Assembly (NCBI GenBank): GCA_026545225.1 | Contig: CM048848.1 | Location: 21,368,806-21,432,805 of the forward strand | DNA length: 64,000 nucleotides | Direction: 5' to 3' | DNA from: Cornus controversa | Lineage: Eukaryota > Streptophyta > Magnoliopsida > Cornales > Cornaceae | Shown: positions 19,467 to 64,000 of the stretch, piece by piece | Numbering within the stretch: position 1 is the stretch's first letter | Layout of the letters: the number at the start of each line of letters is the position of its first letter | Notes under the pieces: model-generated | Seen by the model: only the letters and a program-made list of their open reading frames with translations | The model's database searches: none | Told to the model about the DNA's origin: nothing | Made by a program: the position numbers and the translations under genes

Positions 19467-19468
19467 AT

Positions 19469-26064: not shown

Positions 26065-26084
26065 ATATATTTACAATAAAATTA

Positions 26085-30250: not shown

Positions 30251-30255
30251 AAAGA

Positions 30256-30900: not shown

Positions 30901-30904
30901 CATT

Positions 30905-31910: not shown

Positions 31911-31944
31911 GTAAGTGGATAATTACTTTTAGTGCGTGAAAAAT

Positions 31945-33720: not shown

Positions 33721-33744
33721 ATTACCGACACCCACTTTTTCCTC

Positions 33745-34205: not shown

Positions 34206-34304
34206 TTTATTTCTTTCTAATAAAATAAAGTTTAGGCCAGTTGTCCTGGGGCCTAATCATAATTAGCAAGACAAAATTGTAAAATAGTTATGTTATAACA
34301 CAGT

Positions 34305-36020: not shown

Positions 36021-36480
36021 ACACTATAATAGTGCCAGTATAACAATTAAAATATATATCGTTCACATGTGCACGAAACCCAAAGGTTAAATTTGATCCT
36101 ACATCGTAAATTTTATGTTACGAGACACTGTATTAATGCCAATATGGACAATTAAAATATATATGATTCATATGTACACAAAAACCAAAGCTCGAATTCC
36201 ATCCTACGTAAATTTTATGTTATGACACACTGTAATAATGCCAGTATCAATAATTAAAATATATATGGTTCACATGTGCACGAAACTCAAAGATCAAATC
36301 TCATCTTATTGTAAATTTTATGTGCACGAAACTCAAAGATTAAATCTCTATCTTATTGTAAATTTTATGTTATGACACACTGTGATATTGTCAGTACCGA
36401 CAATTAAAATATATATGCTTCACATGTGCTAAAAACCAAAGGTGCACGAAATCTCATCCTACCATATAAAATGTATATAT
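36013..36480 (+). repeat. 105-bp tandem repeat, array B
   Basis: Four to five units of the same repeat as 32930-33720, resuming after the MITE (landmarks near 36111, 36212, 36316 and 36362). The third unit is shortened by an internal deletion. Confidence 0.9.
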
Positions 36481-36730
36481 ACATATACATCATTACCAAT
36501 ACAAAATTGGTAAAATAGTTATCTTATGACACACTAAAATATATACGGATAAAAATATGGATCGTATTCTACCATATGGTGGGTCAAAAGTGACTTTTGA
36601 AACTTAGTGGAGTCATCTTCTCTTTAAACTTCGAGAACGTATAGTTGAGTCTTCCACATTGCTACAACCTCATACCATTCAAATACTGGTATTGCTTTTG
36701 AACCAAACCATTCCAGTAATCGCACCCAAA

Positions 36731-39475
36731 ATGGAAAGAGAAGCTGCACTTCTTTCTAACATTGTGACGGAAATTGTGAAGAAGTTGGGGTCTGTTGCTT
36801 CCGAAGAGATCCAATCGGTGTGTGGTCTCAAAACAGATTCTCACAAAATAGAGGACACCATTTCTACTGTCAAAGCCGTACTTTTCGATGCGCAGCAGCA
36901 ACATGCCACAAACCATGAGGCTAGTGATTGGCTTGAAAAGCTCAAAGACGTGGTTGATGATGTTGATGACTTGCTCGATGACTTTTCAACACAAGATTTG
37001 TGGAGGAAGGAGATAATGACTTCCAACAAAAAGCCCAAGAAGGTACGCATTTTCTTTTCAAGCTCAAACCAGCTGTTTTTTCGTGTCAAGACGAGTCTCA
37101 AAGTTGAAGCTTTTCGCGTTAAGATGATTCGCAAAATTAAAGCTTTTCGTGTTGAGACAAGTCGCAAAGTTAAAGACGTTCGAGAGAGACTAGATGCCAT
37201 TGCTGAAACTAACATCAAATTTCACTTTAGTCTTCAATGGCCTATGGATATGCAAATTGAGAATATTTTGAGCTATGATCACCTCCCCTCGCATCTAAAA
37301 CAATGCTTTGCAATTTGTTGCTTATATCCTAAAGATTGTGAAATTGATAAGCAACAACTGATCCAATTGTGGAGTGCACATAGATTTATCCCATCGTTGT
37401 CATCTTCATCAGATGAAAATGAAAATCAAGATACGGACGATGTTGGAGATTTGTATTTTATGACTTTATTAAGGAGCTCTTTTTTTCAAGATGATACAAT
37501 ATTAGATGAATTTGGTAATATAATAAGTTGTAAAATGCATCATTGTATGCATGACCTTGCAGTTTCAGTTGCGGGAAGTGAGAGTTCCATGGTAGATTTG
37601 GGCGCAGAAGATGTTTCTTCAAAAATTTGTCACATGTCATTTGGTTGGTGTCTATCTATAGGTAGATCATGTAAAATTCCAGCCACGTTGCTTGGAGCTA
37701 TCAAGACAAGAACATTTTTTTTGCCAGCTCAAGGATACGATTCAATTTGCTTTTCTTGTGAACCGGAGAATCCACTTTATGCAACAATTCTTTCTAACTT
37801 TAAAAGGTTACGCGTGTTGGATCTGCATAGCTTGGGGATGAACATGGTGCCGAGTTGCATAAGTAAGTTAAGGCATTTAAGGTATCTTGACCTCTCTTGT
37901 AATGGTGGCATTCAGATTCTACCAAATTCTATTACTAAGTTGCGAAATTTGCAGACTCTAAAACTTTTTGGTTGTTCTCTTAAAGAATTGCCGAGAGATA
38001 TTAGAAAATTGGTGAGCCTTAGGCATCTAGAGCTTAGTTTTCATAGTCATTTGACTGACATGCCACATGAATTGGGACAGCTGACTTCTCTTAGAACGTT
38101 AAACCGGTTCATCGTGGGTCGATGCAACAGGTTAAGGGAATTGAAAGATTTAAACAATCTAAGGGGAGAGCTATCAATTGAACTACCAATTAGGCTACCA
38201 TTTTCTCAAAGGCCAAGATTAAAAGAAGCAGAGGAAGCGAACTTGGAGGGAAAAGAATTCCTTCAGTCTTTGAAATTAAATTTTGGCAACAACTCCTATG
38301 ATGATGATGATGATGATGGTGAGTTAGGGCTAGTGTTGGAAGCTCTCCAGCCACATGCAAATATGAAAAAGCTAAAAATAGAAGATTATAAGGCTGTGAG
38401 ATTACCAACATGGATGTCGTCCCTCTCATATCTTGTTGAAATTTCTTTATCACAGTGTATGGGATGCAAATATCTTCCAAAAATTGAGCATCTTTCTTGT
38501 CTCAAAAGTCTTCATCTTCATGACTTATTTTCGCTGGAGTACATAGATGATGACAACAATTGTGGTGTTAATAATGACTTGCTCTCTTCTTCTCCATCTT
38601 CTTCAAGGGAGCCAACAACAACCACATTCTTTCCATCACTGAAACATATCAATTTCTCGAATTTGCCTAATTTGAAGGGATGGTCAAGGAATAAAGAAGC
38701 ACTTCTATCATCATTTCCTTGTCTTCTTGAATCAGTAATCTGGTTCTGCCCCAGGTTAACATCAATGCCTCTGCAACCAACTGTTGTAAAACTAGAATTT
38801 GGGCGTGTCAGCGAGAAGGTAGTACAACAGCAGTTACTGACAACATTTGTTGCAACGACATCTTCTTCTTCATTGGTTCCTCTTTCCAACTTAAAGGAAC
38901 TGGTAATATGTGGCATCGATGGCCTAGTTACTCTGCCGGAGGGACTTCTCACTTCTCTACAGAAACTAAAGATTGTATTATGTGAAAGACTAACCTCTCT
39001 GTCTAGAGGGATGCGACATCTCACCACCCTCATGTCCTTGGAGATCCACCACTGCAAAGAGATTGATTTGTCAGATGGTGATGTTGATGATGATGGCATG
39101 CATTTTCAAGGCCTTAGGAACCTAACTTCTCTGTTTATCTTTGAAAATCCCAAGTTGGAGTCTCTTCCTGCGGGGCTTCAACACGTTACCACTCTGCAAC
39201 ATCTATCTATTCTGGATTGTGAAAATTGGAAAGGTTTACCGGAGTGGATAGGCAACCTCACATCACTTCAACATCTTTGGATTCGTCCATACCGCAAATC
39301 AACATCACTGCCCGAAGGGATGCGTCGGCTCACTGCATTACAAAAACTGGAAATTGAAGATTGTTCACAGGAGCTGAAGGATAGATGCCAAAAGGAAACG
39401 GGGGAAGATTGGCCTAAGATTGCTCACATCCCAGAGGTTATAATAGAAGGTATCCTTCTTAATTTGAACCCTTGA
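36731..39475 (+). CDS. NLR-derived CC-WHD-LRR protein lacking NB core
   Basis: RGA-type resistance-protein relative. The frame is open from 36659, but ATG 36731 (MEREAALLSNIV...) matches the usual start of this family and gives 914 residues. Numbered from 36659: coiled-coil Rx-type domain about 25-185 with DDVDDLLDDF at 100-109; a short threefold AFRVK-type repeat at about 141-174; then a jump straight into LSYDHLPSHLKQCFAIC (204-220, RNBS-D) and the winged-helix region with CMHDLA at 296-301; leucine-rich repeats from about 385 to the end. P-loop, kinase-2, RNBS-B and GLPL are all missing, a gap of roughly 200 residues in family terms, yet the frame is uninterrupted. Such a protein could not bind ATP in the usual way. 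It may be a pseudogene kept open by chance or youth, or a CC-LRR regulator or decoy. The paralogue at 48208 is truncated. Confidence 0.88.
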   Translation: MEREAALLSNIVTEIVKKLGSVASEEIQSVCGLKTDSHKIEDTISTVKAVLFDAQQQHATNHEASDWLEKLKDVVDDVDDLLDDFSTQDLWRKEIMTSNKKPKKVRIFFSSSNQLFFRVKTSLKVEAFRVKMIRKIKAFRVETSRKVKDVRERLDAIAETNIKFHFSLQWPMDMQIENILSYDHLPSHLKQCFAICCLYPKDCEIDKQQLIQLWSAHRFIPSLSSSSDENENQDTDDVGDLYFMTLLRSSFFQDDTILDEFGNIISCKMHHCMHDLAVSVAGSESSMVDLGAEDVSSKICHMSFGWCLSIGRSCKIPATLLGAIKTRTFFLPAQGYDSICFSCEPENPLYATILSNFKRLRVLDLHSLGMNMVPSCISKLRHLRYLDLSCNGGIQILPNSITKLRNLQTLKLFGCSLKELPRDIRKLVSLRHLELSFHSHLTDMPHELGQLTSLRTLNRFIVGRCNRLRELKDLNNLRGELSIELPIRLPFSQRPRLKEAEEANLEGKEFLQSLKLNFGNNSYDDDDDDGELGLVLEALQPHANMKKLKIEDYKAVRLPTWMSSLSYLVEISLSQCMGCKYLPKIEHLSCLKSLHLHDLFSLEYIDDDNNCGVNNDLLSSSPSSSREPTTTTFFPSLKHINFSNLPNLKGWSRNKEALLSSFPCLLESVIWFCPRLTSMPLQPTVVKLEFGRVSEKVVQQQLLTTFVATTSSSSLVPLSNLKELVICGIDGLVTLPEGLLTSLQKLKIVLCERLTSLSRGMRHLTTLMSLEIHHCKEIDLSDGDVDDDGMHFQGLRNLTSLFIFENPKLESLPAGLQHVTTLQHLSILDCENWKGLPEWIGNLTSLQHLWIRPYRKSTSLPEGMRRLTALQKLEIEDCSQELKDRCQKETGEDWPKIAHIPEVIIEGILLNLNP
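37072..37182 (+). repeat. In-frame repeat in CC-to-WHD linker
   Basis: Three imperfect units of about 36-45 bp encode variants of FRVKTSLKVEA / FRVKMIRKIKA / FRVETSRKVKD, immediately before the NB-ARC deletion point. Confidence 0.8.
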
Positions 39476-39600
39476 TATATCCACCATAAAAATCTTCATA
39501 TTGTTTTTTTCATAACCAACTATTCATCTTGTTCATTCTTCCTCTCTTAATCTGTTCAAATTTCAGCTGAATATTTGATGTGGACATTGACATTGAAACA

Positions 39601-39649
<49 letters not shown>

Positions 39650-40365
39650 TTCCAATAATACTGACATTGACATTCTTCCTCTCTTTTTCTATAAGGGCTT
39701 GACGAGATAGATAGCTGGGCAGGGAGTTCTGACACTTCCACCTAATAGCAGCGGGCTGGCCGTGAATCAAATCAATCTTTCTCATACCGTTCTTTCAAGT
39801 GAGCCCCTCTGTCTCTTGTTGTTCCAGTTCTTCTTCTTCTTCATTATTTTTTCCCTCCATTTCGAGCTTCATAACTCATGGAATTTCATTCTCAAATAAC
39901 TCATTCCAATAATACTTGTCATCAATTTTTTGAGAAGTAAAATTACTTGCATCACTTATAATAATGGTAAGGAGTAATATCCATCTTTTTCCCAAATAGA
40001 GTGAACAATTTTGTTTTGATGTCTCTAAAGGAAAATATAGAATCCAAAGCTTGTTTTTATTTTCTTTTTTCGAAGACCCTTTTATCAGAGCTAAAGAATG
40101 TTTGGCATTAGAGATTCACATAAATTCATTTTCTTGCATTCTTTTTCCAACCCTATGATAAAGCATCATGTCTACGAATCTTGTGAAAATATCATTGTTG
40201 ACATCCACATGAATTGTTAAAATAACCTTCAGTGGTAGCTTCCTAGTTATTTTCTCCCCTGCCAAATTACACAAAATTAAAAAGAAATTTCAACAGGTTT
40301 TAATGTTTTATATATATATCACATGCATCTCACTAGTTTTTGACTTTTATATACTTAAATAAAAC
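39476..40365. other. 3' flank of NLR-derived gene
   Basis: The first about 105 bp are shared with the 3' flank of the truncated paralogue (54604-54715), so the segmental duplication runs past the stop codon. An (AT)n microsatellite lies at 39603-39648. No further gene is seen. Confidence 0.6.
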
Positions 40366-48205: not shown

Positions 48206-49907
48206 AACATTGGAGAATTGTATTTTATGACTTTATTAAGGGGCTCCTTTTTTCAAGATGATACAATATTAGACGAATTTGGTAATATAATAAGTTGTAA
48301 AATGCATCATTGTATGCATGACCTTGCAGTTTCAGTTGGGGGAAGTGAGAGTTCCATGGTAAATTTGGGCGCAGAAGATGTTTCTTCAAAAATTCGTCAC
48401 ATGTCATTTGGTTGGTGTTTATCTATAGGTAGATCATGTAAAATTCCAGCCACGTTGCTTGGAGCTATCAAGACAAGAACATTTTTTTTGGCAGCTCAAG
48501 GATACGATTCAATTTGCTTTTCTTGTGAACCGGAGAATCCACTTTATGCAACAATTCTTTCTAACTTTAAAAGGTTACGCGTGTTGGATTTGCATAGCTT
48601 GGGGATGAACATGGTGCCAAGTTGCATAAGTAAGTTAAGGCATTTAAGGTATCTTGACCTCTCTTGTAATGGTGGCATTCAGATTCTACCAAATTCTATT
48701 ACTAAGTTGCAAAATTTGCAAACTCTAAAACTTTTTGGTTGTTCTCTCAAAGAATTGTCGAGAAATATTAGAAAATTGGTGAGCCTTAGGCATCTGGAGC
48801 TTAGTTTTCACAGTCGTTTGATTGACATGCCGTGTAGATTGGGACAGCTGACTTCTCTTAGAACGTTAAACCAGTTCATTATGGGTCGATGCAACAGGTT
48901 AAGGGAATTGAAAGATTTAAATAATCTAAGGGGAGAGCTATCAATTAAACTACCAGAGAGGCTACCATTTTCTGAAAGGCCAACATTAAAAAAAGTTGAG
49001 GAAGCGAACTTGGAGGGAAAAGAATTCCTTCAGTATTTGAAATTAAATTTTGGTAACAACTCCTATGATGATGATGATGGTGAGTTAGGGCTAGTGTTGG
49101 AAGCTCTCCAGCCACATGCAAATATGAAAAAGCTCAAAATAGAAGATTATAAGGTTGTGAGATTACCAACATGGATTTTGTCCCTCTCAAATCTTGTTGA
49201 GATTTCTTTATCACAGTGTATCGGATGCAAATATCTTCCAAAAATTGAGCATCTTTCTTGTCTCAAAAGTCTTCATCTTCATGACTTATTTTCGCTGGAG
49301 TACATAGATGATGACAACAGTTGTGGTGTTAATAATGAATTACTCTCTTCTTCAAGGGAGCCAACAACAACCACATTCTTTCCAGCACTGAAACATATCA
49401 ATTTCTGAAAATTGCCTAATTTGAAGAGATGGTCGAGGAATAAAGAAGCACTTCTACCAAAATTTCCTTGTCTTCTTGAATCAATAATCTGGTTCTGCCC
49501 CAGGTTAACATCAATGCCTCTACAACCAACTGTTGTAAAACTAAAATTTGGGTGTGTCAGTGAGAAGGTAGTACAACAGCAGTTACTGACCACATTTGTT
49601 GCAAGGACATCTTCTTCACTGGTTCCTCTTTCCAACTTAAAGGAACTGGTAATATGTGGCATCTATTGCCTAGTTACTCTACTGGAGGGACTTCTCACTT
49701 CTCTACAGAAACTAGAGATTGTATCATGTGAAAGACTAACCTCTTTGTGTAGAGGGATGCGACATCTCACCGCCCTCATGTCCCTGGAGATCCACCACTG
49801 CAAAGAGATTGATTTGTCAGATGGTGATGATGATGGCATGCATTTTCAAGGCCTTAGGAACCTAACTTCTCTGTTTATCTTCAAAAATCCCAAGTTGGAG
49901 TCTCTTC
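48206..49907 (+). pseudogene. Truncated NLR paralogue, 5' segment
   Basis: Near-identical to 37446-39168 of the NLR-derived gene (about 95% by eye). It begins within the winged-helix region (YFMTLLRGSFFQDD), keeps the CMHDLA motif and most leucine-rich repeats, and lacks the CC domain, start and promoter. A stop at 49406-49408 arises from a small change relative to the paralogue, after which the frame continues to 49907. The GAT-repeat acidic stretch is shorter here (four rather than six aspartates before GELG). Homology is cut at 49907 by a retroelement and resumes at 54290. Confidence 0.92.
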
Positions 49908-50355
49908 TGATGTAGGACAGTTTTAGTAGGTTTCATATTATATATATCTATATATATTTTTAATATTTTTTTAGAGAAAGTTTAATTTTGGGTATTAATT
50001 TTCTTTTATTTTTTGTTTCCTTTGGAAATAGATTTTCTTTTCCTGTTAGGATAAGAATTTCTACAAGTTTCCTTTATTGTTTTAGTGTTTTCTTTCTTTT
50101 TTCATTTCCTTTGGAAATAGATTTTCTTTTCCTGTTAGGATTAGAATTTCTACAAGTTTCCTTTATTTTTAGGTTTCCTAGTATTGTTAGGATTATGATT
50201 TCTCTATTATAAATATATGTACTGTCATAGGGTAGAGATGAATCAATTTATCAATAAAGTTTTACTTTGGTTTACAATTAATTATGCTGGTGGATTCTAG
50301 TTTCTGTGTTCTTAGGGTTTACGCTAGTAACCCCTTATACTTCCGTTCTGCGTCA
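49908..50355 (+). repeat. Gag-element LTR 1
   Basis: 448 bp. It contains a TATAAAT box near 50208, an AATAAA signal near 50253 and an internal direct duplication of about 60 bp (50017-50080 and 50102-50166, GTTTCCTTTGGAAATAGATT...). Confidence 0.92.
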
Positions 50356-51873
50356 AGTGGTATCAGAGCTTAAGGATTTGCCTTGTACGATGGTCAACAA
50401 CGAAGACAGAGGAGTTAACCCTGGTGACGCTGGTCGTAGGGATGTAGATATATGGGCAGCAATTAATGAGCAGCGATAGGTGATGGAGAGGTTGACGACC
50501 ACATTACAGCAACTGATGGAGCGGCAGCCTAATCCTGACATCCCTATTTGTAACGCTCAAGCCCCTGCCAATAGAGTTAGAGTCAAGGGAGTTGCCCTTG
50601 GCCGCCCTGGAGGTGGACATCCGCCTAGAGCGGCGAGACACGAGTAGTTTGAAGATTTGAGTGATGAAGACTCTAATGAGGATGTTGTGGGTCACCAAGG
50701 AATATGACAACAAAATCGAAACCAAAATCAACCTGACTATAGAATACACGCAGACATACCGCTGTTCTATGGTAAATTGCAGATTGAAGAATTCTTGGAC
50801 TGGATTTCTGAGGTTGAGAGGTTTTTCGAGATGCCTGAAGTTACGGAGGATCGACAAGTCAAGATCGTGGCATATAAGTTGAGAAGCGGGGCTACTGTTT
50901 GGTGGGAGAAGTTGCAAAATGATAGGCGACGACAAGGCAAGGCTCCTATACGAACCTGGAGGAGAATGAGACAACTTCTGATGAGCAAGTTTTTACCACC
51001 AGATTATGAGCTGATGATGTATAACAAATATCATAATTACAGGAAAGAGGATGTGTCTATCAACGATTGGACGAAGGAGTTTGAAGTTAATTTTATTGGA
51101 GTCACTACTTATTTTAAGGAGATTGATTGTGAGAAAAATTTTATTGTTTCACCTCTCGTAACGAAAGATTACAAAGAAAATGATTTCGATGCCAAATTAG
51201 GTGATGATCAAAATGATGAAAATCTCAATTTGCATGTCCAAAAGGAGGTAGAAGAATATATTGATATCAATGATAACTTGGAAGAACAATCAGTCGCAAA
51301 AGTTTCATGTGATTCCTTGTTGTTCAACAAAGTCGAAGAGGATAAAGGCATGGAGCATGGGAACACTTACGACATGGACCCATATTCAAGGAGTCAAGGT
51401 AATGACGTGACACAAGAGTTTGAGCACACGATCAAATATGTTGAGGATGCTTCCATGGTTTGCACCAAGAATGAGGATGATGATGTTATCCATGAGACCC
51501 TAGCTGATGGTTATTCCAACATGGATGTTCACTAGAAAATTATTCCAGAATGTTCCTTATTCACCAAAAGACTTGAATGGCCACTTAAAGGTGGAGAAAA
51601 GGTAAATTTTATAGTTACCAGAATAATACAATCAAGCATTAAAATTTGGGATCTTGGCATTAAAAGTGAAGTTCAGCTATATGGAGTATCAAGTGGTATT
51701 ATTGAGAAGTTGAAAAAAAGGAAAGAAAAATGGCAGAAAATATTGAGGCAAGTTTATGAAGCTTTGAGATTAGGTCTTGGGTGGTATAAAATTCTGTTCA
51801 TACTCATATATGATGAGTCGCTTTATTTGTAATAAAACTCGAGGGCGAGTTTTTTTTTTGAAGTGGGAGAGAC

Positions 51874-52324
51874 TGATGTAGGACACTTTTAGTAGGTTTC
51901 ATATTATATATATCTATATATATATTTAATATTTTTTTACAGAAAGTTTAATTTTGGGTATTAATTTTCTTTTATTTTTCGTTTCCTTTGTAAATAGATT
52001 TTCTTTTCCTGTTAGGATTAGAATTTCTACAAGTTTTCTTTATTGTTTTAGTGTTTTCTTTCTTGTTTTCGTTTCCTTTGAAAATATATTTTTTCTTTTC
52101 CAGTTAGGATTAGAATTTCTACAAGTTTCCTTTATTTTTAGGTTTCCTAGTATTGTTAGGATTATGATTTCTCTATTATAAATATATGCACTGCCATAGG
52201 GCAGAGATGAATCAATTTATCAATAAAGTTTTACTTTGGTTTACAAATAATTGTGCTGGTGGATTCCAGTTTCTGTGTTCTTAGGGTTTACGCCGGTAAC
52301 CCCTTATACTTCCGTTCTGCATCA
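51874..52324 (+). repeat. Gag-element LTR 2 (central)
   Basis: 451 bp, shared by the two tandem units. Confidence 0.92.
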
Positions 52325-53842
52325 AGTGGTATCAGAGCCTAAGGATTTGCCTTGTATGATGGTCAACAACGAAGACGGAGGAGTTAACCCTGGTGACGCT
52401 GGTCGTAGGGATGCAGATATATGGGCAACAATTAATGAGCAGCGACAGGCGATGGAGAGGTTGACAGCCACGTTACAGCAATTGGTGGAGTGGCAGCCTA
52501 ATCTTGACATCCCTATTTGTAACGCTCAAGCCCCTGCCAATAGAGTTAGAGTCGAGGGAGTTGCCCTTGGCCGCCCTGGAGGTGGACATCCGCCTAGAGC
52601 GACGAGACACGAGCAGTTTGAAGATTTGAGTGATGAAGACTTTGATGAGGACATTGCGGGTCACTAAGGGATTCATCAACAAAATCAAAACCAAAATCAA
52701 CCTGACTATAGAATACGTGCAGACATACCGCTGTTCTATGGTAAATTGCAGATTGAAGAATTTTTGAACTGGATTTCTGAGGTTGAGAGGTTTTTTGAGA
52801 TGCCTGAAGTTACGGAGGATCGACAAGTTAAGATGGTGGCATATAAGTTGAGAAGTGGGGCTACTGTTTGGTGGGAGAAGTTGCAAAACGATAGGCGACG
52901 ACAAAGCAAGGCTCCTATACGAACCTAGAGGAGAATGACACAAATTCTGATAAGCAGGTTTTTACCACCAGATTATGAGCAGATGATGTATAACAAATAT
53001 CATAATTACAGGAAAGAGGATATGTTTATCAACGGTTGGACGAAGGAGTTTGAAGGTAATTTTATTGGAGTCACTACTTATTTTAAGGAGATTGATTGTG
53101 AGAAAATTTTTATTGTTTCACCTCTTGTAACGAAAGATTACAAAGAAAATGATTTCGACACCAAATTAGGTGATGATCGAAATGATGAAAATCTCAAATT
53201 GCATGTCCAAAAGGAGGTGGAAGAATATGTTGATATCAATGATAACTTGGAAGAACAACCAGTCGCAAAATTTTCCTATGATTCCTTGTTGTTCAACAAA
53301 GTCGAAGAGGATGAAGGCATGGACCATGGGAACACTTACGATATGGACCCATATTCAAGGAGTCAAGGTAATGACGTGACACAAGAGTTTGAGCACACGA
53401 TCAAATATGTTGAGGATGCTTCCATGGTTTGCACCAAGAATGAGGATGCTGATGTTATCCATGAGACCCTAGCTGATGGTTATTCCAACATGGATGTTCA
53501 CTGGAAAATTATTCCAAAATGTTCCTTATTCACCAAAAGACTTGAATGGCCACTTAAAGGTGGAGAAAAGGTAAATTTTATAGTTACCAAAATGATACAA
53601 TCAAGCATTAAAATTTGGGATCTTGGCATTAAAAGTGAAGTTCAGCTATATGGAGTATCAAGTGGTGTTATTGAGAAGTTGAAAAAAAGGAAAGAAAAAT
53701 TGTAGAAAATATTGAGGCAAGTTTATGAAGCTTTGAGATTAGGTCTTGGGTGGTATAAAATTCTGTTCATACTCATATATGATGAGTCACTTTATTTGTA
53801 ATAAAACTCAAGGACGAGTTTTTTTTTTGAAGTGGGAGAGAC

Positions 53843-54289
53843 TGATGTAGGACACTTTTAGTAGGTTTCATATTATATATATCTATATATATATTTAATA
53901 TTTTTTTAGAGAAAGTTTAATTTTGGGTATTAATTTTCTTTTATTTTCGTTTCCTTTGAAAATAGATTTTCTTTTTCTATTAGGATTAGAATTTCTACAA
54001 GTTTTCTTTATTGTTTTAGTGTTTTCTTTCTTTTTTCGTTTCCTTTGGAAATAGATTTTCTTTTTCTGTTAGGATTAAAAATTCTACAAGTTTCCTTTAT
54101 ATTTAGGTTTCCTAGTATTGTTAGGATTATGATTTCTCTATTATAAATATATGTACTGCCATAGGGCAGAGATGAGTCAATTTATCAATAAAGTTTTACT
54201 TTGGTTTATAATTAATTATGCTGGTGGATTCCAGTTTCTGTGTTCTTAGGGTTTGCGCTGGTAACCCCTTATACTTCCGTTCTGCGTTA
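53843..54289 (+). repeat. Gag-element LTR 3
   Basis: 447 bp, followed directly by the TCTTC target duplication. Confidence 0.92.
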
Positions 54290-54720
54290 TCTTCCCACGG
54301 GGCTTCAACACGTTACCACTCTGCAAGATCTATCTATTCTAGATTGTGAAAGTTGGAAAGGTTTACTGGAGTAGATAGGCAACCTCACATCACTTTAACA
54401 TCTTTGGATTCGTCTATACTGCAAATCTACATCATTGCCCGAAGGGATGCGTTTGCTCACTGCATTACAAAAACTGGAAATTGAAGATTGTTCATAGGAG
54501 CTGAAGGATAGATGCCAAAAGGAAACGGGGGAAGATTGGCCTAAAATTGCTCACATCCCATAGGTTATAATAAAAGGTATCCTTCTTAATTTGAACCCTT
54601 TATATATCCACCATAAAAAATTTCATCTTGTTTTTTTCACAAGCAACTATTCATCTTATTCATTCTTCCTCTCTTAATCTGTTCAAATTTCAGCTGAATA
54701 TTTGATGTTGACATTGATAT
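54290..54720 (+). pseudogene. Truncated NLR paralogue, 3' segment
   Basis: It continues the homology to the gene at 36731-39475 from its position 39164 (GGGGCTTCAACACGTTACC) through the last leucine-rich repeats to the 3' flank. Several in-frame stops are present (for example TAG where the paralogue has TGG at ...PEWIGN) and the original stop codon is changed. The homology ends at about 54720, next to the CACTA terminus at 54724. Confidence 0.9.
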
Positions 54721-54723
54721 ATA

Positions 54724-54965
54724 CACTACAAGAAATTAGGATTTTAACGACAGACTTTTTACGATGGGCCCGCATGGCCCCTTGTGAAAAACAATTTTCT
54801 ACGACGGGCCCGCATAGCCCCTTGTAGAAAATCACTTTCTACGACGAGCTCGCATGAGCCGTTGTAGAAATTAGTTTTCCACGATGGGCCATGTAGGCCC
54901 GTTGTAGAAAGTTGGTTTTCACGACGGGCTAATGGCCCGTCGTAGAAAGCTTTATTCTTATTACG
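54724..54965 (+). mobile_element. CACTA transposon left terminus and subterminal repeats
   Basis: CACTACAAGAAATTAGG at 54724-54740 is a canonical CACTA terminal inverted repeat, preceded by ATA as the possible 3-bp target duplication. Subterminal units of about 45-50 bp follow to 54950, each an imperfect palindrome of the form CTACGACGGGC...GCCCGTTGTAGAAA, five copies, as expected for transposase-binding regions. The matching right terminus is not found before 64000. Confidence 0.9.
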
Positions 54966-55159
54966 GGCTTTGCCCGTAATTGAAATGTTTTTTAAAAATA
55001 ATTTCATGTTATTATTTTGGTTTCGCGCGATACACTCTTCCTCTCTCTCATGGGCGCGTTCAATTTTCTCTCTCACTTCAGACCTTCTCTCTCATTCCAT
55101 CTCTACTCAAAATCTCAACCTATAATCTCTGTTCCTCAACCAAATTTAAACTCAATCTC

Positions 55160-55295
55160 ACCAGACAATTGAAGCCCTAACCCAATCTCACTCACCGATC
55201 GAAACCCTAACCCAATCCCACTCACCAATCGAAGCCCTAACCCAATCTCTTTCCCTTCGGTGAAAGCCCTAACCTAATCTCACTCCTTGATTGAT
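55160..55295 (+). repeat. About 30-bp repeat in leader-like sequence
   Basis: GAAGCCCTAACCCAATCTCACTC-type units occur four times (near 55168, 55199, 55231, 55265), degenerate, in CT-rich 5'-UTR-like sequence between the CACTA terminus and the first captured exons. Confidence 0.75.
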
Positions 55296-55465
55296 TAAGT
55301 CAGCCCACAACTCCATGAGTTCATCATGTTCTCCAGCACCGGCAAACTCCATGAGTTCATCAGTCCTTCCATCTCGTATATATTCCTTTCTCTCTCTCTC
55401 TCTATACTCTCTTTCTCTCACTATAATATTAGCTTATTTTATTTTATTTTTATGTATATTTTGAG

Positions 55466-55556
55466 AATGAAGACAATGTTTGATCAGTACCAGAAGACTT
55501 TGGGGATCGATCTGCGGAACTCACACTATGAGGTCTCTCTCTGTTTCTAATACGTA

Positions 55557-55593
<37 letters not shown>

Positions 55594-55960
55594 CGTTGTG
55601 TTATACTTATATATGTTGATTGATGCTTTGCAGAGAATGAAAGAAAATTTGAAGAAACTCAAAGACATTAATAGGAAATTTCTGAGGGAAATTAGGTGAT
55701 ATTTAGGAGAAGTTTTTACTTACTTAATTTGTTCTGTTACGTTGTTGAAATTTTTTGAAAATTTAAATTGTGTTTTGCGTGTGTTGATATTTTTGATGAA
55801 TTTTCTTAATTCGGTAGGCAAAAGATAGGTGAGAGTTTGAACGATCTGAGTTATGAGGATCTTCTTCGTCTTCATGAAGATGGCCTCTCTCGACGACTCT
55901 GCCTTGGTTGGGCTCCCCATGTCTATCTTCAAGAAGCTATCAATAACTTCAGGATCACTG
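55466..55960 (+). pseudogene. AP3-like: APETALA3/DEFICIENS-type MADS-box fragment (K-box)
   Basis: Three exons. 55466-55532 (67 bp) encodes MKTMFDQYQKTLGIDLRNSH then YE with a GT donor. 55634-55695 (62 bp) encodes RMKENLKKLKDINRKFLREI. 55818 onward encodes QKIGESLNDLSYEDL and continues to a donor near 55961. The 67- and 62-bp exon sizes equal those of exons 2 and 3 of MIKC-type floral homeotic genes, and the YQKTLGIDL...HYE and NLKKLK motifs are those of B-class AP3/DEF proteins. Beyond SYEDL the sequence departs from AP3 and encodes LGWAPHVYLQEAINNF, which I cannot identify and which may be a fusion to another captured exon. The MADS DNA-binding domain and C-terminus are absent. Confidence 0.85.
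55556..55592. repeat. (TG)n(TA)n microsatellite
   Basis: It lies in the intron between the two K-box exons of the MADS fragment. Confidence 0.95.
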
Positions 55961-57134
55961 GTACGTTTTCTTTATTTCTTTTTATGATTGTTTTGAATTT
56001 TGTTATAATTAGTTATTTTATGACCTTGTTTGGTTGCCAGAAAATATAAGAGAAGAAAAGAAAATAGAACTGGATAATATTTTATGTAATCTTGGTTTCC
56101 CAAATGTGAAAGATTTGTTACTTTCCCCAACAAAAAAAAAATTGAAAGATTTGTTCACGACTCAATTGATCAAAGTAGTTGTATCATGCTTAGATAACTG
56201 GAGAATTTTGTTTTCTTAAGTTCAAGATAATTAAAAGATTCAGATAACTTTTAAAATAAGATTCAATAACCGAACCTCTTTACTTTTTTACAGTTTATCT
56301 GAAAACCAAACAGAGGATATAAAATTTTTCTAAGAGTCTTAGTTCATGCTTTACATGTGATGATTTATCGATGTATATCCAGACAACTTATATTTGTTGA
56401 CAGATTGATATTTTGTGTTAGTTTATTCATGCACAAAAGAAAAATGAAAAATCCACTACTTTTCATTTCATTGCAGAGAAATATAGAATTAGAAAAAAGA
56501 GCACTTGGACCTTGCAATAGTCTGGGTTGAAGTGGCTATTGCATTGTTCTTACTTTTCTTATCTTTTCATTATAACTTCTTGATACATCACTAAAATAAA
56601 GTATGGAAATTCTAAAAATGTATTGGTGGTGGGGGTGGATAACGTAAGAGTCACATGTTTTCTTTTCTTTTTTATTTTCAGTTTCCTTTTTTATATATCA
56701 GCATTAGTGATGACTGGTGCTGTAACTCAACTGCTCTTTTCTTAATAGGTTTGACAAGAAATAAAATATATATCCGACAAGCATATATGCCCCATCGAAA
56801 ATGTGCACATTCTGCAACAAATATGCATACATATGTATAAGCTGAAAAAGTGTGGATTTACATGTACAGTATGCTCATAGAACTGCAAGAAAAGTAAATT
56901 GAATAGTGGCTTTAATATACTTGTATGTCATTTATGCATGCAATAGCTTGGATGTAATTATGCATATTTGGCAAAATCCTTTCTTCGTAATTACTTAATT
57001 ATTCAATTGTAACCTAATTCTTTATCTACATTATCATTTACACAAGTTTTTTTTTATTTGGTGTCCTAGATTGATGAAACAATTGATTTTTTCCTTTTTC
57101 CTTTTTCTTCTTTTAAATATGTATTAGATACTTG

Positions 57135-58541
57135 TCAAGAATGTTGAGATAAACATTTAGAGAATTGGCTAAGCTATCGTTCTTGATCCTCCCAAGACCC
57201 ATGAACACTCATTGGATAGTAGATTACCCATTTCCCAGTCTTCTCGAGTAATGCTAGTTTTTCCTTCATATAGTCTCCCTCAAATTCATAGTGTGTTGTT
57301 GGATTAAGAAGTTGCCTATCTATTCCTCCTGGCATTTAACCTTAGTTTGCATGTATCATGCTTGAAATTGCTTGTTCATCAAGGGAAAGAGGCTTTGGCA
57401 TCTTTATTTGAAGTTAACGTGGATGATGAAACAAATGCAAAAGGGGATGAGGCCTCTATCATCAGTGTAGGACTTGAACCTTTGGCTCCATTACCAAGAT
57501 ATGCCTCACACTTGAGGGTTTCTTGTGTGAAAATACCAGAATGTGGTACCTTTGAATCTCTTAAACAAAGTTCGTCTATTGAAGCTGAAGATCGTCAAGA
57601 AATGATTGATCTGGCACTACATAATTACTTTGAAATAGATAGATATCTTGCCAAAGATGATCTTTTCAGTATTTGCATCAATTGGAATTGTAGTTCAGCT
57701 TTATGCATTCCTTGCAGCCAAAAGATGCAAAATACCAATGGCACCATCATCTAGACTCTTATTTCTAAGTAGTTTCTTGGCCTCAGGTTGTGGCTATGGA
57801 ACCCTCAGATGAACCAGTTCTCAGAGTCAATCGTACTCAAACTACCCTCGTGCTTGGAGGGAATGTTCCTTCTACTATTCCTCCAGATGTGTTGATTGCT
57901 GGAACTAAAATTTTTGTGCCTGTACAAGGAGATACAGTAAAGACTTTGGCCTCTATACTGACACCACCTCTGTGTCCATTAGCACTTTCGTCAAAACTCA
58001 GGTTTGCTATTCTATTATATGGTTTGCCTGGTGAGTTTTGTGGTTTACAATTTTTTGTTCATATTTAATGAGATTTTATTAAAATAAATAAATTAAAAGC
58101 TTCCTGATGTTGTTGATTAGGGAGTCAACGCTATAGCCTTAGGGACTCTTGTTAGTCATAATTTGCAACACAGAATCGAAGGATTTGATAAAAAAATGAA
58201 GGGACTGTTATGTGCAGTGACTTGATATCCTAAAAACTGGATTCATAGACAAGGTTTTTGAATGATTATGGTGAGTTGAATAACCTCTAAGTGAAACAGT
58301 AAAATGTCTTATTTTTCTATTCTGCTATTACACACATATTTATATGCATTCATGTGACTATGTAATTGTTGCTATATACTGATTCAGTACTTTTTGCAGG
58401 GTGTGGGAAGAGGACTGTGGTTAAATATGTTGCTCACCATTTGGGCCTGCATGTAGTGGAATATAGTTGTCATAATCTAATGGCATCCTCTGAAAAAAAT
58501 ATGTCTATTATGCTATCTCAAGCTTTCAGTGCGGCTCGCAG
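57135..58541 (+). pseudogene. PEX6: PEX6 (peroxisomal AAA-ATPase) fragment
   Basis: PEX6 is the AAA-ATPase that, with PEX1, extracts the PEX5 receptor from the peroxisomal membrane. Exon A, about 57135-57750, matches the N-terminal half (AIVLDPPKT early, VKIPECGTFESLK in the middle, ICINWNCSSALCIPCSQ late), with stops near its start. Exon B, 57788-58030, encodes VVAMEPSDEPVLRVNRTQTT to ILLYGLPG with a GT donor. Exon C, 58400-58541, encodes CGKRTVVKYVAHHLGLHVVE to SAARR with a donor. Together they reach the first AAA module, including the GLPGCGKRT nucleotide-binding loop across the intron. The rest of the D1 and all of the D2 ATPase domain are missing. Introns are retained, so the capture was from DNA and not from a processed transcript. 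Confidence 0.93.
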
Positions 58542-58561
58542 GTACTATGGCAGATTTTAGT

Positions 58562-59255
58562 TGCTCTTTAGTATGATCCATGCATGTTGTTGTTGCATAA
58601 CCTAAGACTGTAGTGTTAAACAAAACCACAAAAAAAAAGGAATATTGAAGAAGAATATAGGATCTTTCTACCCTTCTTTTTCTTGTTTAATTGATTTTTT
58701 TCTTCTAAACAACATAGGCAAAGTCGAGATTATTATTTCTTCAAAAAATTATTTTTAAAGATTTTTTTTTCATTTGGCTTCTTTATTATCCTGATATGTT
58801 GGCAATCGATAGGTAGTTAACCCATCTTGCATCTCATCCTCTCACTTCATCCATTTTTTAATTATAAAATGATTCAACTTCATCTTGGTTCTATACTTCT
58901 ATTTTGGCGATCATTTTTCACTTTCTATGAAAACCTATCTACTGTTGAACATGAAAACTAGGCTTCAAGTAATTGTCACTGATTACTATTGTCTGTAGAT
59001 AATGGAAGGGGTAGTGAAATATGTACAGGACATCAATTAGAAATTAGTGGCATGGGCATTGAATATAATGGTAACACCATGAAAAGGATTATCTCAAGAA
59101 TAGTTTGGATATGGATATGTGCTTGTTGAAGACTAAGTTTTGCTTTTAGTACTTTTCTTTTTCATTATTTCAGTTTGATCTTTTTTTTATAGAAATGCTT
59201 TCTATATGATTTGGGTTTACTTTTTTTTAACTTGATTTGAGGTCTCTTATTTTTT
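58562..59255. other. Spacer between captured fragments
   Basis: AT-rich, intron-like sequence. No coding signal is seen. Confidence 0.4.
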
Positions 59256-59267
59256 TTGGTAGGTGTA

Positions 59268-59942
59268 TAGAAAAGGATGGCAGAAGACGCATAAGAGGTC
59301 AAGTCATTTAAAGACCTGGGAGTATGTGAGCAATTAGTGGAAGATTGTGATAATTTGGGCTGGAAAGACCCGTCCAGGATATGGGCTGAAGCTATTCCTC
59401 ATGCATTGGAAGGTCCGTTCTCTTTATTTCTTCATCTTATATACTGATATTTGTTATTTATATTTAGTTTTTTACAGGAAGTCTCTTTTTAAGTATATTT
59501 CTAGTATCTAAATGATAACTATTTTCTTTTTTAAGTCATCCATTTATATTTGTTGGAGTCATCCATACTTTATGGGACATCATGCTGGTTCTACTCTATG
59601 GGTTTTGTGATTTAGGAAAGGACCTGATAGGACTTGCATAGACGGGTTCTGGTAAAATTACATCTTTTGCACTCCCTATCCTAGCCTCCAAGCCCTTTTA
59701 GGAACTCCACAGGCGTTCTTTGCATGTGTGCTCTCTCCAACATGGTTTGTCATCTGATTTGTTGGTTTAAGTTTGTGAAAGAAATTAATATTTGTACATC
59801 TTGTGTTATAATTGGATTCTATTTAGAATTTGATGTGCTTTATATCACTCATTGTATTTTCCCTTATTCTAGAGAGCTTGCTATTCAGATCACTGAGCAA
59901 TTTGAAGGTTTAGGATCTGGCATTGGTGTAAAGTGTGCAGTG
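59268..59942 (+). pseudogene. RH10-like: DEAD-box RNA helicase 10 (DDX47/Rrp3-type) fragment
   Basis: Exon 1, 59296-59411, encodes [20 protein letters not shown] then [19 protein letters not shown] (the Q-motif region, with W in place of the usual conserved Gln of PSKIQAEA). Exon 2, 59618-59740, encodes KDLIGLA, a TAG stop where Gln is expected, then TGSGK (Walker A); after a frame change it reads PQAFFACVLSP. Exon 3, 59873-59942, encodes RELAIQITEQFEGLGSGIGV, the PTREL (Ia) region. The DEAD box and C-terminal helicase half are missing. Family function: pre-rRNA processing in the nucleolus. The stop, frame change and lost Q-motif Gln make this a disabled copy. Confidence 0.9.
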
Positions 59943-60164
59943 GTGAGCTTTCTATAAATGTATTAGATGATATATAAATATATGTGTGAATATATATTCA
60001 AAGTCCAAGGTTCACAGTCTTCCTTGTGTCAGATTTCACTTATTCTTCCGATGCAAATGCTGGTATTTGTTGTATGTTATGTTAATTAGGTTGTAGCCTT
60101 ATGTTGAAAAGTCAATTTGATTGCTTGTTTTGATGAAGGTAGTTAAACTTTTTTCATATTTTTA

Positions 60165-60235
60165 CAAGGGAAATCCTGGAGTTCTCTTGTTAAAATTTTT
60201 TCATATTTTTACAAGGGAAATCCTGGAGTTCTCCT
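60165..60235. repeat. Short tandem duplication
   Basis: TTTTTCATATTTTTACAAGG followed by GAAATCCTGGAGTTCT occurs twice in succession (about 60149-60187 and 60197-60233). Confidence 0.85.
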
Positions 60236-60399
60236 TGACTATCACTTTTGATCTTCACCTACTCAAACTGCTATAAGGGAAGACTTGAATTTGACACTAG
60301 TTGAGGTTTGTCTGATTTTCATTTCCTTCTCCCTCGTTAGAAGCAGTACCATATATCATATGAATTGGAACTAATTTTCTATCACCTTGTAGTACTCCA

Positions 60400-61330
60400 C
60401 ATTTGGTTCCATACTAAGTTACTAACAATTGGAGCGATGATTGGTGCTATAACAAGTGGGAAAATAGCAGACTTCCTAGGTCGAAAAGGGGTGTGTAATG
60501 CTTAAAATTCTTCTAGATTCATATCTAAGCTCAATTGTTTTCTAATAATTGTATTTTCTTTGGTGTGTTGATGGAAGCAGGCAATGAGAATGTCAACTGG
60601 TTTTTGCATTACCGGTGGCTTGCAATCTACTTCTCCAAGGTATATACTATTTGCACATTTTTTATTCTTTAGAACTTGGTCAAAATATAAAAATTAAATC
60701 ACTCGGTGTTATTTTTCTTTGTATCATGATTCTTGTATAGGGAACATTGTCACTTGACATGGGAAGGATTTTCACAAGATATGGCATTGTCATCTTCTCT
60801 TATTTGGTAAATACTTAACAACTGAATAATTTACAAATAACTTAACAAGGTTATTTACTTGGTTTGAATTTATGTTTTCTTACACTGTCCCATGATCTAA
60901 CAAACTATTTATTTAATTGAATAAATAGATCACAATATTTATAGCTGAAATAGCATCAAAGAATCTCCGGGGAGGACTCAACCATTAAATCTGGTAGGAG
61001 AGTCATAATGCTAGATTTTTATGTAATTCAGATTCAAAGGATTTGATCATTGACATCTCTTTTCTCTTCTGTAGCTCATGATAGTGGCTCATTGGTTGCA
61101 TTCTTGATTGGAACAATGATAACATGGCAAACACTAGCTCTGTTAAATTATAATTTTGCATAGTTTATAATTCTATGATGACATATGGTATAAGTTTAAA
61201 AAATTTGTAAAATTTAATACCCAAAAAAGGACATGTAGAAACTGATTAATTGATTTGAATTGAAGGACCTGCTCCATGCATTGTCTTGCTTGTGGGGTTG
61301 TTCTTTATTCCAGAGTCTCCTAGATGGCTA
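60400..61330 (+). pseudogene. ESL-like: ERD6-like sugar transporter fragment
   Basis: Six small exons of a major-facilitator monosaccharide transporter. 60400-60490 encodes TIGAMIGAITSGKIADFLGR then KG (the loop 2-3 GR[K/R] signature). 60581-60639 encodes AMRMSTGFCITG, then shifts frame by one base relative to the expected WLAIYFSK. 60741-60806 encodes GTLSLDMGRIFTRYGIVIFS. 60929 to about 60992 encodes IFIAEIASKNLRGGL. 61076 to about 61143 resembles LMIV..SLVAFLIGTMITWQ. 61264-61330 encodes GPAPCIVLLVGLFFIPESPR then WL (the PESPRWL signature). These cover about transmembrane helices 2-6. Both halves outside are absent and there are frameshifts, so it is a fragment. Introns are preserved. Confidence 0.9.
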
Positions 61331-62390
61331 GTGAGTGAAGAAAAAATTACGCTTTTACAAATATGGTTTTAATGAGAAAATTGGTGTTAAATGAAACTAA
61401 AAATTGAAAATTGCAGGTGTTTTGCACTCTATGCTGTCTTTCCATGTCTGCGAAGTTTGATGCTGTCTTTGGACCACTAGTACTCTTTCATATTTTTTAA
61501 CAACTTCTGTAGAATTGGGTGACAAAGGGTAGGTGCATAACTGCTGTTCCAATGGAGTCTTTTTTGCAGTTCTATTAATTTTTGGTAGCTTTTGATTTAA
61601 TAAAACTCAATTAATTTATCCAAAAAAAAAAGATTGCAATATTGTGAGTTTGGTCCACATTATCGGGATATGCTGAGGCCCCCATCTTGAGCCAGTCCCT
61701 CACATATTGACACTTAGAGTTTTAGACAAAGCATGGATAATGCAAATTTGTCTCATTTATTGGCATGTCACCATTTTTTTTGATCTTCAGCAAGATGTTT
61801 CTATTCAACCAAATCTTAAATGGGTCACTCAGGTCATTAGTGTATGATTATAAATTGAACTTGGTGTATCCTGGTCATGGCCTTGTTAATATTGCTTTAT
61901 TATTTTTTGGTGAAGATTACTTATGTTATAATTATACATTCTTCATGTTTAAAAGTTAAATAAGCATACCATTCTAGCTACACAAGTTTGGTACATGTCA
62001 TTTATAATCTGCCTATTGATAAAGCTGACTTACAAACTCAACTTATACTGAATAAGGAATGGCCAGAGGATTACATAATTAATTCTTAGATAAAAATAAT
62101 GTGATTGAAAATTTTATGAACTGTGTTATTTTGATGTTTGCTTCTAGTTGAAATACAGTTCGAAATACGGAAAGCTATCCCATTTTACTATGAACTGAAT
62201 ATTTGAAATGTCACTAAGATAATTTATGTTATGTTTCTTTTGGTTGTTGGTCTATAAGGTTGAAGTTGGACTCTTTTCTTATTGGTTTCTTGTGGAAAGA
62301 GACAACTTTGCAATTATTTTTGCTTACTTTTCTTGGCTTAACTATTGAAATTATTTTCAAATTGGAGTATTTTAGAAATTATTGTGGTGT
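61331..62390. other. Spacer, no gene seen
   Basis: AT-rich. No recognisable exon. It probably contains intron-derived sequence from the flanking fragments. Confidence 0.4.
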
Positions 62391-62394
62391 ATTT

Positions 62395-62545
62395 TTGTAA
62401 TTTGTCACGAGATTTATTTGTGGCGATCAATTATTTATTAATATTAGTAATAGAATAGCCACGAATTAATTTCGTGGTAGAAAACAAACTTTTTGCCACG
62501 ACAAATACTTCTGTGGCAAAGAGTTGAATTAGCAACGACTAGTTC
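62395..62545. repeat. Palindromic subterminal-like repeats
   Basis: Units of the form GCCACGAATTAATTTCGTGG and TTGCCACGACAAATACTTCT, then GTGGCAAAG, resemble CACTA subterminal repeats of a different sequence class from those at 54754-54950. No terminal CACTA/TAGTG sequence is found beside them. Confidence 0.5.
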
Positions 62546-63560
62546 CTGTATTGAGATTGCTAATGGTTGGTCTTCTGTGAAGGATGATACAAATAGTTCA
62601 AGTCAAGATAAAACCTTGAATGATACATCGAAGGTATACCTTGTTTACTTACTCTGACTATGAGCAGAAAGTCCTGAGTACTGTTTTGTCGTTGCTAAGA
62701 ATTTATTGCAACTAAAGATCACTTTCAGATTTATATTTTTTTGGTCAATTACTGTATAATTTTCAATATTACCAGTGGAGCAACAATTATTATTGTAAAT
62801 TTCAATTTCTTTTCATGTCTGATGTGCAAGATTTTTTCTTTCAGATTTTTGTGTCATGTTGAATTTCTAGCCAAGCCTTTAGAACTCAGTAATCTCGATA
62901 CTGGAGTGAGAAATCTAGGTTCAATTCAATGATCTGGATGTTGCTCTTGTCAAAAGGAGAGACCCTCATTGTAAATTTTTCCTACAATAGATATACATGT
63001 ATAAATAGTCATGCTCTACCATTACAGTATTATTGTAATTAAGTTAGTATTGGTACTCGAATTAAGGTGCTGTTTGTGTGTTTGATAATGCAATTTTTTT
63101 TGTCCTTGCAATATAAAAATTTATTTAATCAGAAGCACCATTACATTCATCATTAGGCACATTTAAAAAACAAATAGGAAACACATGCCTGTTACAGACT
63201 CTAGACACCCATTGCAGCACTGCCCCCAAAACGCTGCAAGAGTTGTAACTAGAGCAACCTTTGAAATAGACATTTTCATTGCAGTTTAGAACTTACAATG
63301 AAGTTAAATTTTAAGCGAGAACATTTCATTTAGCATTGAACACTAAGCACTTAAGTGGGTCCTCACTTGTGCAACACACTCTTGATGTTCTAAAAAAACT
63401 ATTTTAATATTTAGAAAAGTCCTTTAGTGCTTAGAAAAGGAAAAAAATCAACATTATTTTATGCACACATTCAAATCTAAATAGAACAAGACATTAAATG
63501 ATACAATTCAAATCAAACTGAAAGCTTGCATGCTAGAAAATTGCAATTAAATTTCATTAT
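62546..63560. other. Unassigned region
   Basis: A short open stretch at 62562-62636 (ANGWSSVKDDTNSSSQDKTL) could be an exon, and 62871-62931 another, but neither is recognisable. Confidence 0.25.
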
Positions 63561-63574
63561 ATATTGATCTTTCT

Positions 63575-63725
63575 TTGCCTTCTCTCCTGTTGTACTTGCT
63601 CCATTGATCCTCTCTCCTTAACTCTCAGGATAATGAACCAGCGCAGCAGTAGCAGCAACAGCAGCAGTACCAGTAGCAGTAGTCTTCTCTCCTGTTGCAC
63701 TTGCTCCATTGCACCATTTTGTTTC
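63575..63725. repeat. Trinucleotide repeat within a 27-bp direct repeat
   Basis: A degenerate (CAG/TAG)n tract at 63640-63685 is flanked by two copies of CTTCTCTCCTGTTGYACTTG, then CTCCATTG (63578 and 63683). Confidence 0.8.
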
Positions 63726-64000
63726 GATTGCCTCTAAACTACGTCTTCAAGTTCAGTGTTTTGCTTAAGTTCATTTATAGCTAGAATGTCTTTTAAATGT
63801 TCACTGTATCTAGAAATATTTGTTAATGGTTGTAATTTTTAAGCATGCTAAATCATTTGAATGTATTAGCTTTGAAGGGATGCAAATTAGATATTGATAT
63901 TGTATGGAAGCACATACTTTTGGGTTGGAATGAAAGTTATTCATACTGTGTTTTTGGGTTGACTTTCATTTAAATATGTTAGCTTCGAATGCAAATTGGA

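Follow-up and report, generated by a model that had tools for sequence, protein, structure and literature searches.

The window, that is, the whole stretch of 64,000 nucleotides of Cornus controversa DNA analysed here, contains a complete CACTA element of 9,884 bp (copy W, contig C4), which starts at position 54724 and ends, counted on past the window, at 64607. Four fragments of host genes, all in sense orientation on the plus strand and all with introns, lie between its ends: an AP3-type MADS gene, PEX6, a DEAD-box helicase gene and an ERD6-like transporter gene, followed by two further captured segments (Table 1). At the left terminus an exact CACTACAAGAAA is accompanied by four copies of a subterminal repeat in 40-bp steps (54779-54929), as the initial annotation had described when it placed a CACTA terminus with subterminal palindromes here. 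The extent given there, ending at 61330, is too short, since the element with its further captured segments reaches 64607. The right terminus with an ATA that it had suggested searching for past 64000 is indeed present, being TTTCTTGTAGTG at 64596-64607 (L009:596-607), followed by ATA. The right end contains 11 GGCGG/CCGCC motifs within 700 bp, with none in the element middle.

Table 1. Features of element W and its left flank; L009 positions lie beyond the window end.
Feature	Position	Strand	Evidence or best match
Pack-CACTA element W	54724..64000 in the window, on to L009:607 (=64607)	+	12-bp ends exact, target site duplication, 8 other copies with their own duplications
Left target site duplication ATA	54721..54723	.	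Right copy at L009:608-610
Left terminal inverted repeat CACTACAAGAAA	54724..54735	+	12 bp perfect
Transposon's own 5' end and leader	54724..55320	+	Recurs at many other places
Subterminal palindromic repeats of the left end, TACGACGGGCCCGCAT.. type, period 40 bp	54754..54958	+	Repeat search
Capture scar where leader and AP3 meet, two copies of AACTCCATGAGTTCATCA at a spacing of 36 bp	55309..55362	+	Direct repeat
AP3-type MADS fragment, from the end of exon 1 into exon 4	55321..55881	+	Best source C7:35687529-35688076, 89%
PEX6 fragment, from within exon 1 to exon 4	55877..58928	+	Best full-length source C6:64945335-64948569, 90-92% blast identity
DDX47/RH10-type DEAD-box fragment	58929..60258	+	Best source C8:4968513-4969761 plus adjoining bases, 94%
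ERD6-like sugar transporter fragment	60256..61417	+	Best long match C7:15998949-16000071, to 61380, 90%
Captured segment, no source over most of its length	61418..62562	+	Genome matches
Captured repeat segment	62563..63354	+	Also at C2:72.707 Mb and C6:7.630 Mb, 90-92%
Transposon's own 3' end, type 2	63351..64000, on to L009:607 (64607)	+	6 O-lineage places and 20 other listed places
Left-flank duplicate (=54290-54717, 93.9%) without the element	39163..39590	+	Window self-comparison

The CACTA-type terminal inverted repeats (TIRs), the 3-bp target site duplication (TSD) and the subterminal repeats are those of a CACTA (En/Spm) transposon, and the captured host coding DNA between the ends, the lack of a transposase and the multiple copies with the same capture are those of a Pack-TYPE (Pack-CACTA) element. 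Such elements are reportedly treated by Catoni 2019. Within W we find no transposase frame, and no stop-to-stop frame of at least 80 amino acids outside the leader and the gene fragments. Helitrons, which transpose by a rolling-circle mechanism, have neither TIRs nor TSDs, and membership in that group is ruled out by the presence of both. The 12-mer alone is weak evidence: its match at 54724 is the sole exact one on either strand of the window, and with two mismatches it matches 13 times, no more than chance (mean 10.25). The ATA duplication of W alone is weak evidence as well, since it is set in an AT-rich repeat.

Some 160 bp separate the element from the stop codon of the gene remnant in front of it, which we take to be NLR-like. 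The right flank of W resumes behind the left-flank duplicate at 39829-39957, which corresponds to 65348-65476 (92%); this match starts about 740 bp past the right end, so that the region is a partial empty site only. Close to the left flank, a repeat-bounded insertion (49907-54287) interrupts an LRR-coding remnant paralogous to 37443-39590. The terminal stretches of this insertion (49907-50353 and 53842-54287) are 95.3% alike, and 49907-52320 is repeated as 51873-54285 at 95.1%.

The identity of the four fragments, as named in the initial annotation, is supported by Pfam and by their source loci. Pfam was run on exon-joined translations, with the peptides joined by hand, and gave K-box (5e-7; 30.2 bits, cut-off 30), AAA (7e-8), DEAD (1.8e-11) and Sugar_tr (3e-18). 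The labels AP3-type, beyond MADS in general, and ERD6-like, beyond sugar transporter, are our assumption. The parent frame of the PEX6 fragment, starting MVERRKPLVLSSTK, is presumably a plant PEX6; in the PDB search AFG2B (3.9e-6) ranks above PEX6 (1.2e-4), so that this search alone does not settle the name. The nearest PDB entry for the DEAD parent peptide is DDX47 (4.5e-26), the next match being at 4.4e-13. The shared orientation of all four fragments, expected by chance in 1 of 8 cases, needs no explanation.

Aligning the fragments to the 771.7-Mb genome, as the initial annotation had proposed, places their sources at four separate loci, C7:35.69, C6:64.95, C8:4.97 and C7:16.00 Mb (or, for the last, ERD6-like loci on C6 or C10), and a collinear gene block is thereby rejected. 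Other DEAD-box loci (C2:63.41 and C8:44.31 Mb) have less coverage or lower identity than the C8:4968513 source. Compared with that source, the DEAD fragment lacks 30 bp at 58954/58955 and carries a 45-bp direct repeat at 60142-60233; an apparent 26-bp filler between PEX6 and DEAD was rejected, as it is DEAD source sequence with the missing 30 bp behind it. The ERD6-like loci on C10 and C6 match out to 61417. The Kimura two-parameter divergences from the sources for exons (corrected) and introns are 0.060/0.115 for AP3, 0.044/0.053 for PEX6, 0.051/0.053 for DEAD and 0.124/0.071 for ERD6, where the greater divergence of the exons suggests that the C7 locus may not be the ERD6 parent. The intron values fit AP3 having been captured first. 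Dating the captures by divergence was rejected because the sources are uncertain, a truncated PEX6 copy at C2:46.27 Mb being as close as the C6 gene or closer. This copy (C2:46266113-46271024), whose start corresponds to 57016, may be either a further source or one more old fragment. In the segment behind ERD6, 62171-62380 matches C1:53248054 (87%) and 62382-62566 is a dispersed, palindromic-looking repeat. The last captured segment was considered as a fifth host gene and dropped, as it interrupts a copia-like coding sequence at C2:72.7 Mb.

The same block recurs elsewhere in the genome. A whole-genome search with 55400-64000, in which the best 40 of 380 candidates were scored so that the counts are lower bounds, yields at least nine copies with both ends (W and A to H), eight of them beyond the window copy, each assembled with its flanks. 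All nine have the ends CACTACAAGAAATT...ATTTTCTTGTAGTG, with the 12-bp TIR perfect in every copy, and equal 3-bp flanks (ATA, GTT, GCA, CAT, ATT, ATA, TGT, AAT and CAT). For a tenth copy at C1:51.32 Mb, the left end alone lies within the stretch read. Each of the four gene fragments is kept, at least in part, in 9/9 copies; the full-length copies W, A and B keep the whole block, A and B being the copies with the same set that the initial annotation had suggested searching for. That the fragments were inserted separately, or form an ordinary gene cluster, is next to impossible given one block between one pair of ends in nine of nine copies and sources at separate places.

The remaining copies lack internal stretches: 59103-60999 in C; 57985-58651 and 62553-63350 in D and E; 56733-57694 in F and G; and 58152-58447 and about 61794-62402 in F, G and H. 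With 62545-63360 and the deletion edges left out, distances within groups are 0.80-1.36% (W/A/B/C), 0.74-1.11% (F/G/H) and 0.77% (D/E), and those between groups are 1.69-2.28%, low values from which we conclude that the family spread recently. A leader match near copy H was considered as a tandem precursor and rejected, no CACTA end being present in the 1.3 kb read.

Judged from their reading frames, the gene pieces of W encode no working protein. PEX6 exon 2 has three in-frame stops, each at a parental glutamine codon, in all seven copies that keep the exon, and its splice donor is lost in 9/9 copies, in W by a deletion of about 64 bp at 57753. A stop in DEAD exon 1 is present in all eight copies keeping that exon. 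These shared stops indicate that both frames had been lost by the time the family spread. Where PEX6 exon 3 is retained in full, it is open. DEAD exon 2 carries a 5-bp insertion in three of eight copies (W, A and B only) and a further stop in two (W and A); exons 2 and 3 are open in D to H. AP3 exons 1-4 have an open frame in W, A and C, whereas the other six of the nine copies are altered, with a stop in B and a 5-bp insertion in exon 1 of D to H, to which E adds a stop, F a frameshift and G a 24-bp in-frame deletion. A 232-residue AP3-PEX6 chimeric frame obtained by in silico splicing was an artefact of a wrong PEX6 exon 2 start; with the parent-based start, the AP3 frame ends after 109 residues. 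Variable columns among the copies number 102/1989 in exons, 132/3709 in introns, 56/597 in the leader and 101/1247 in the 3' end, and with exons somewhat above introns there is no sign of constraint on the exons.

The initial annotation had interpreted the structure as a Pack-CACTA with several captures that could produce chimeric or small-RNA-generating transcripts. The multi-capture Pack-CACTA stands, supported by both ends, the TSDs, the eight further copies and the separate sources, whereas its functional part loses support at the protein level. A host function in which the captured pieces act on their parents (floral MADS, peroxisome and rRNA helicase genes) through small RNAs or read-through is unlikely: among the copies, exons are no slower to change than introns, the PEX6 and DEAD frames were already broken when the family spread, and the PEX6 exon 2 donor is lost throughout. 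It would nevertheless fit the sense order of the pieces behind a leader shared with places that have a transposase downstream, as well as the splice sites picked by eye (GT at 12/13 donors and AG at 11/11 acceptors, the PEX6 exon 2 acceptor being misplaced). Exact 21-mers are still shared with the sources in large number (AP3 82/541, PEX6 999/3032, DEAD 440/1284 and ERD6 184/1142), so that small-RNA effects stay possible. Any effect would thus run through transcripts, small RNAs or methylation. A bacterial promoter scan was set aside, as it does not apply to a plant.

The order in which the cargo was assembled is indicated by older relatives of the family. In the C5 relative, which occupies two places (17.50 and 13.20 Mb), the leader is followed by an AP3 piece running past 55881 into the next AP3 intron, with no PEX6 or DEAD match in the 2.7 kb and 4.35 kb read at the two places. 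Relative P (C4:24004756-24015455; 10,700 bp, TSD ATG/ATG) has the leader, the AP3 piece with a deletion and a PEX6 piece continuing about 556 bp past 58928, which meets a 3' end of another type with no DEAD piece between them; P also carries a gypsy-like insertion. The AP3|PEX6 junction CTTCATGAAGATGGCCTC is identical letter for letter in P, R and W, and AP3 continues at this point in the C5 relative. The C5 relative has the leader/AP3 scar of W, an 18-bp AP3 piece doubled, too, though altered by point changes; P and R keep the first part of this scar, with a deletion behind it. The shared older junctions show that AP3 came first, then PEX6, then DEAD, each cutting the 3' side of its predecessor.

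A one-step origin, with all fragments patched into a single break during its repair and the shorter relatives being later deletions, would be in keeping with the deletion derivatives seen within the family (C, D/E and F/G/H). The C5 relative and P, however, hold more AP3 and PEX6 than W does, contiguous as in the source genes, and neither can therefore be a deletion product of W. This contradicts the one-step origin for AP3, PEX6 and DEAD and leaves it improbable as a whole. Taken together with the coding state, W is very probably a complete non-autonomous Pack-CACTA element of a small family (at least nine copies with both ends), whose cargo was built in successive rounds; the gene pieces in W encode no working protein.

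Several observations weigh against this stepwise history. P and a twin at C4:20.36 Mb have the same left flank (40 bp), as do the two C5 places, so that each intermediate stage rests on one insertion. The C5 relative (C5:17496709-17521074) is about 24.4 kb long and was read over its first 2.7 and 4.35 kb only, and its 3' end is placed from matches at C5:17519921-17521074 and C5:13172470-13173623, where the element should end and where the 3' type of P is found. W is about equally far from sources and intermediates (AP3: 0.083 to the C5 relative and 0.085 to the source; PEX6: 0.041-0.047 to P and 0.036-0.038 to C6), a star-like pattern in which divergence alone shows no nesting; the junctions do. 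A place at C10:24502622-24503182, with leader and part of the AP3 piece (83%, window 55000-55613), is a possible third old relative.

Some features of these relatives stand apart from the order of capture. The P-type element sits in a C4 segment duplicated with its flank at 20.36 Mb, a further P-like copy is found at 18.99 Mb, and copy A is only about 5 kb from the P-type copy at C4:20.36 Mb, on the same strand. About 180 bp in the AP3 source intron (L044:1730-1909, C7:35.688 Mb) have no counterpart in the AP3 piece carried by the C5 relative and could be a small transposon that entered after the capture.

The 3' half of W points to a second lineage. Element O (C1:15115175-15124623; TSD TTT/TTT), which was read whole, shares 60669-62114 with W at 96.6%, unbroken across the junction between ERD6 and the segment starting at 61418, and also the 3' end, and its 5' half differs from that of W. 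In five O-like places the block likewise starts at 60669 and extends to 62650, and the 3' end is shared from 63382 on. O-lineage elements are placed at C7:22.88, C9:30.19 and C2:7.56 Mb, among others. The 3' half of W was probably acquired when two CACTA lineages fused, the DEAD piece coming to lie between their parts. The main rival to this fusion is that the DEAD step was an internal template switch which kept the element's own 3' end, the O lineage having copied the block and 3' end later. The block in O and its relatives is a subset of that of W on both sides, which fits a transfer from W to O equally well and counts against the fusion, and the O-W distance of 3.4% is barely above the family maximum of 2.28%. 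The 3' type of W, on the other hand, differs from that of P and, by matches, from that of the C5 relative, and it is present at 20 other listed places. No listed leader match (n = 23) lies within 100 kb of any listed match to this 3' type (n = 26), each list being drawn from the best 40 scored candidates, so that these figures hold among the matches listed. We consider the later copying by the O lineage a tenable but less probable account than the fusion.

Extra sequences just before 63351 in D/E and in F/G/H were considered as additional captures and rejected. The one in F/G/H starts as a continuation of the repeat at 62563, with matching translations, and its last 472 bp are common to O. It is more likely that W/A/B/C and D/E lost parts before 63351 than that sequence was gained elsewhere.

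In this history, an AP3-type piece was copied in behind the leader, a PEX6 piece then joined on, removing the 3' part of the AP3 piece, and a DEAD-box piece followed, removing the 3' part of the PEX6 piece, an order shown by the relatives. Last, parts of two transposons probably fused, with the DEAD-box piece as the bridge. The captures may have occurred by copying with template switches at short matches, one of which slipped back: such a process would account for the scar behind the leader, for overlaps of about 5 bp where AP3 meets PEX6 and of about 3 bp where DEAD meets ERD6, and for the 45-bp direct repeat. Two points speak against settling on this mechanism, namely that overlaps of about 3-5 bp arise in end joining too and that the sequence would accommodate either template switching or fusion of neighbours. 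Copying with template switches is described for animal Pack-TIRs (PMC8277862). For maize Pack-TYPE elements, captures are described as often coming from more than one locus, and growth by fusion of neighbouring copies has been proposed; this model would give a two-lineage fusion as read for W, and fusion-type CACTA examples are reported in the supplement of the same paper (PMC8903248).

CACTA elements with the same 5' leader most likely supplied the transposase that moved the family. The leader region 55000-55310 is common (81-91%) to 23 listed places outside the AP3-bearing relatives, and a Transposase_21 domain lies on the same strand 9.8-17.2 kb downstream of six of them, suggesting that a transposase source with the same 5' end probably exists. 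The case for mobilisation by a TNP2-like transposase is circumstantial. One leader-bearing place, L061, with a CACTACAAG end, tells against it: no transposase frame is found there in 9.9 kb, and it is not supported as a transposase source over that length. Its frames are presumably LINE-like. Genome-wide, 150 Transposase_21 places are listed (the best 150 of 492), many with open frames of 500-800 amino acids without stops, and CACTA elements may still be active in the Cornus controversa genome.

Several captures in one copy, which the initial annotation had singled out, are not unusual. The soybean element Tgm-Express1 is described as a CACTA element with five gene fragments whose exons are spliced into transcripts (PMC1947982). 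W resembles it in carrying intron-bearing fragments of several unrelated host genes, four here and five there. Tgm-Express1, however, is reported as a 5.7-kb element in an F3H intron with chimeric transcripts proven by reverse transcription PCR (PMC1947982), whereas W measures 9.9 kb; the W family differs in turn by having older relatives that reveal the order of capture. Like the Pack-CACTA and other Pack-TYPE elements described in Arabidopsis, rice and maize, W is non-autonomous with compatible ends and captured coding DNA; it differs from them, as presented there, in that each added piece cut the 3' side of its predecessor and that its 5' and 3' halves are common to two different lineages (PMC8903248). 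In maize Helitrons, stepwise gene capture has been described from comparison of related elements (PMC3288121). W resembles these in gathering several gene fragments round by round, but has TIRs and TSDs. CACTA elements of Chenopodium and grapevine also carry host gene fragments, those in Chenopodium including flower-development genes (AP2), but these are described as single captures beside transposase coding sequence (PMC8978399, PMC2528002). In the literature searched (titles, starts of abstracts and passages, with few subscription papers), no intermediates for a multi-gene CACTA element were found. Multi-gene CACTA elements are thus already known, and it is the capture record of W that is unusually complete and readable.

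Elsewhere in the window, a 3.3-kb unit forms a tandem array (18720-26066), in which 18720-22767 equals 22019-26066 at 99.8% and 18720-19468 equals 25318-26066 at 99.1%, reflecting either tandem duplication in the very recent past or an effect of the assembly. The stretch 26932-36497 is densely packed, satellite-like, with degenerate repeats in direct and inverted orientation, most of them 73-91% alike, and 11681-14045 contains a 250-bp repeat four times, twice in each orientation, at 91-96%.

Multi-gene cargo may be gathered all at once, by fusion of neighbours or through stepwise copying errors, and the W family, keeping relatives at two earlier stages, makes the order of three captures readable and the models comparable. 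We tentatively propose, as a conjecture we would not yet favour over its negation, that such cargo grows one way: the 5' end and the older pieces are kept, the last piece is cut on its 3' side, and a new piece with a possibly foreign 3' end is added, so that the 5'-to-3' order would be a record of time and CACTA lineages would trade halves. Should one-way growth and end exchange also apply to further families, the order of fragments could serve to date captures. As regards the host, the copy that follows the NLR-like remnant is a possible candidate source of chimeric or small RNAs.

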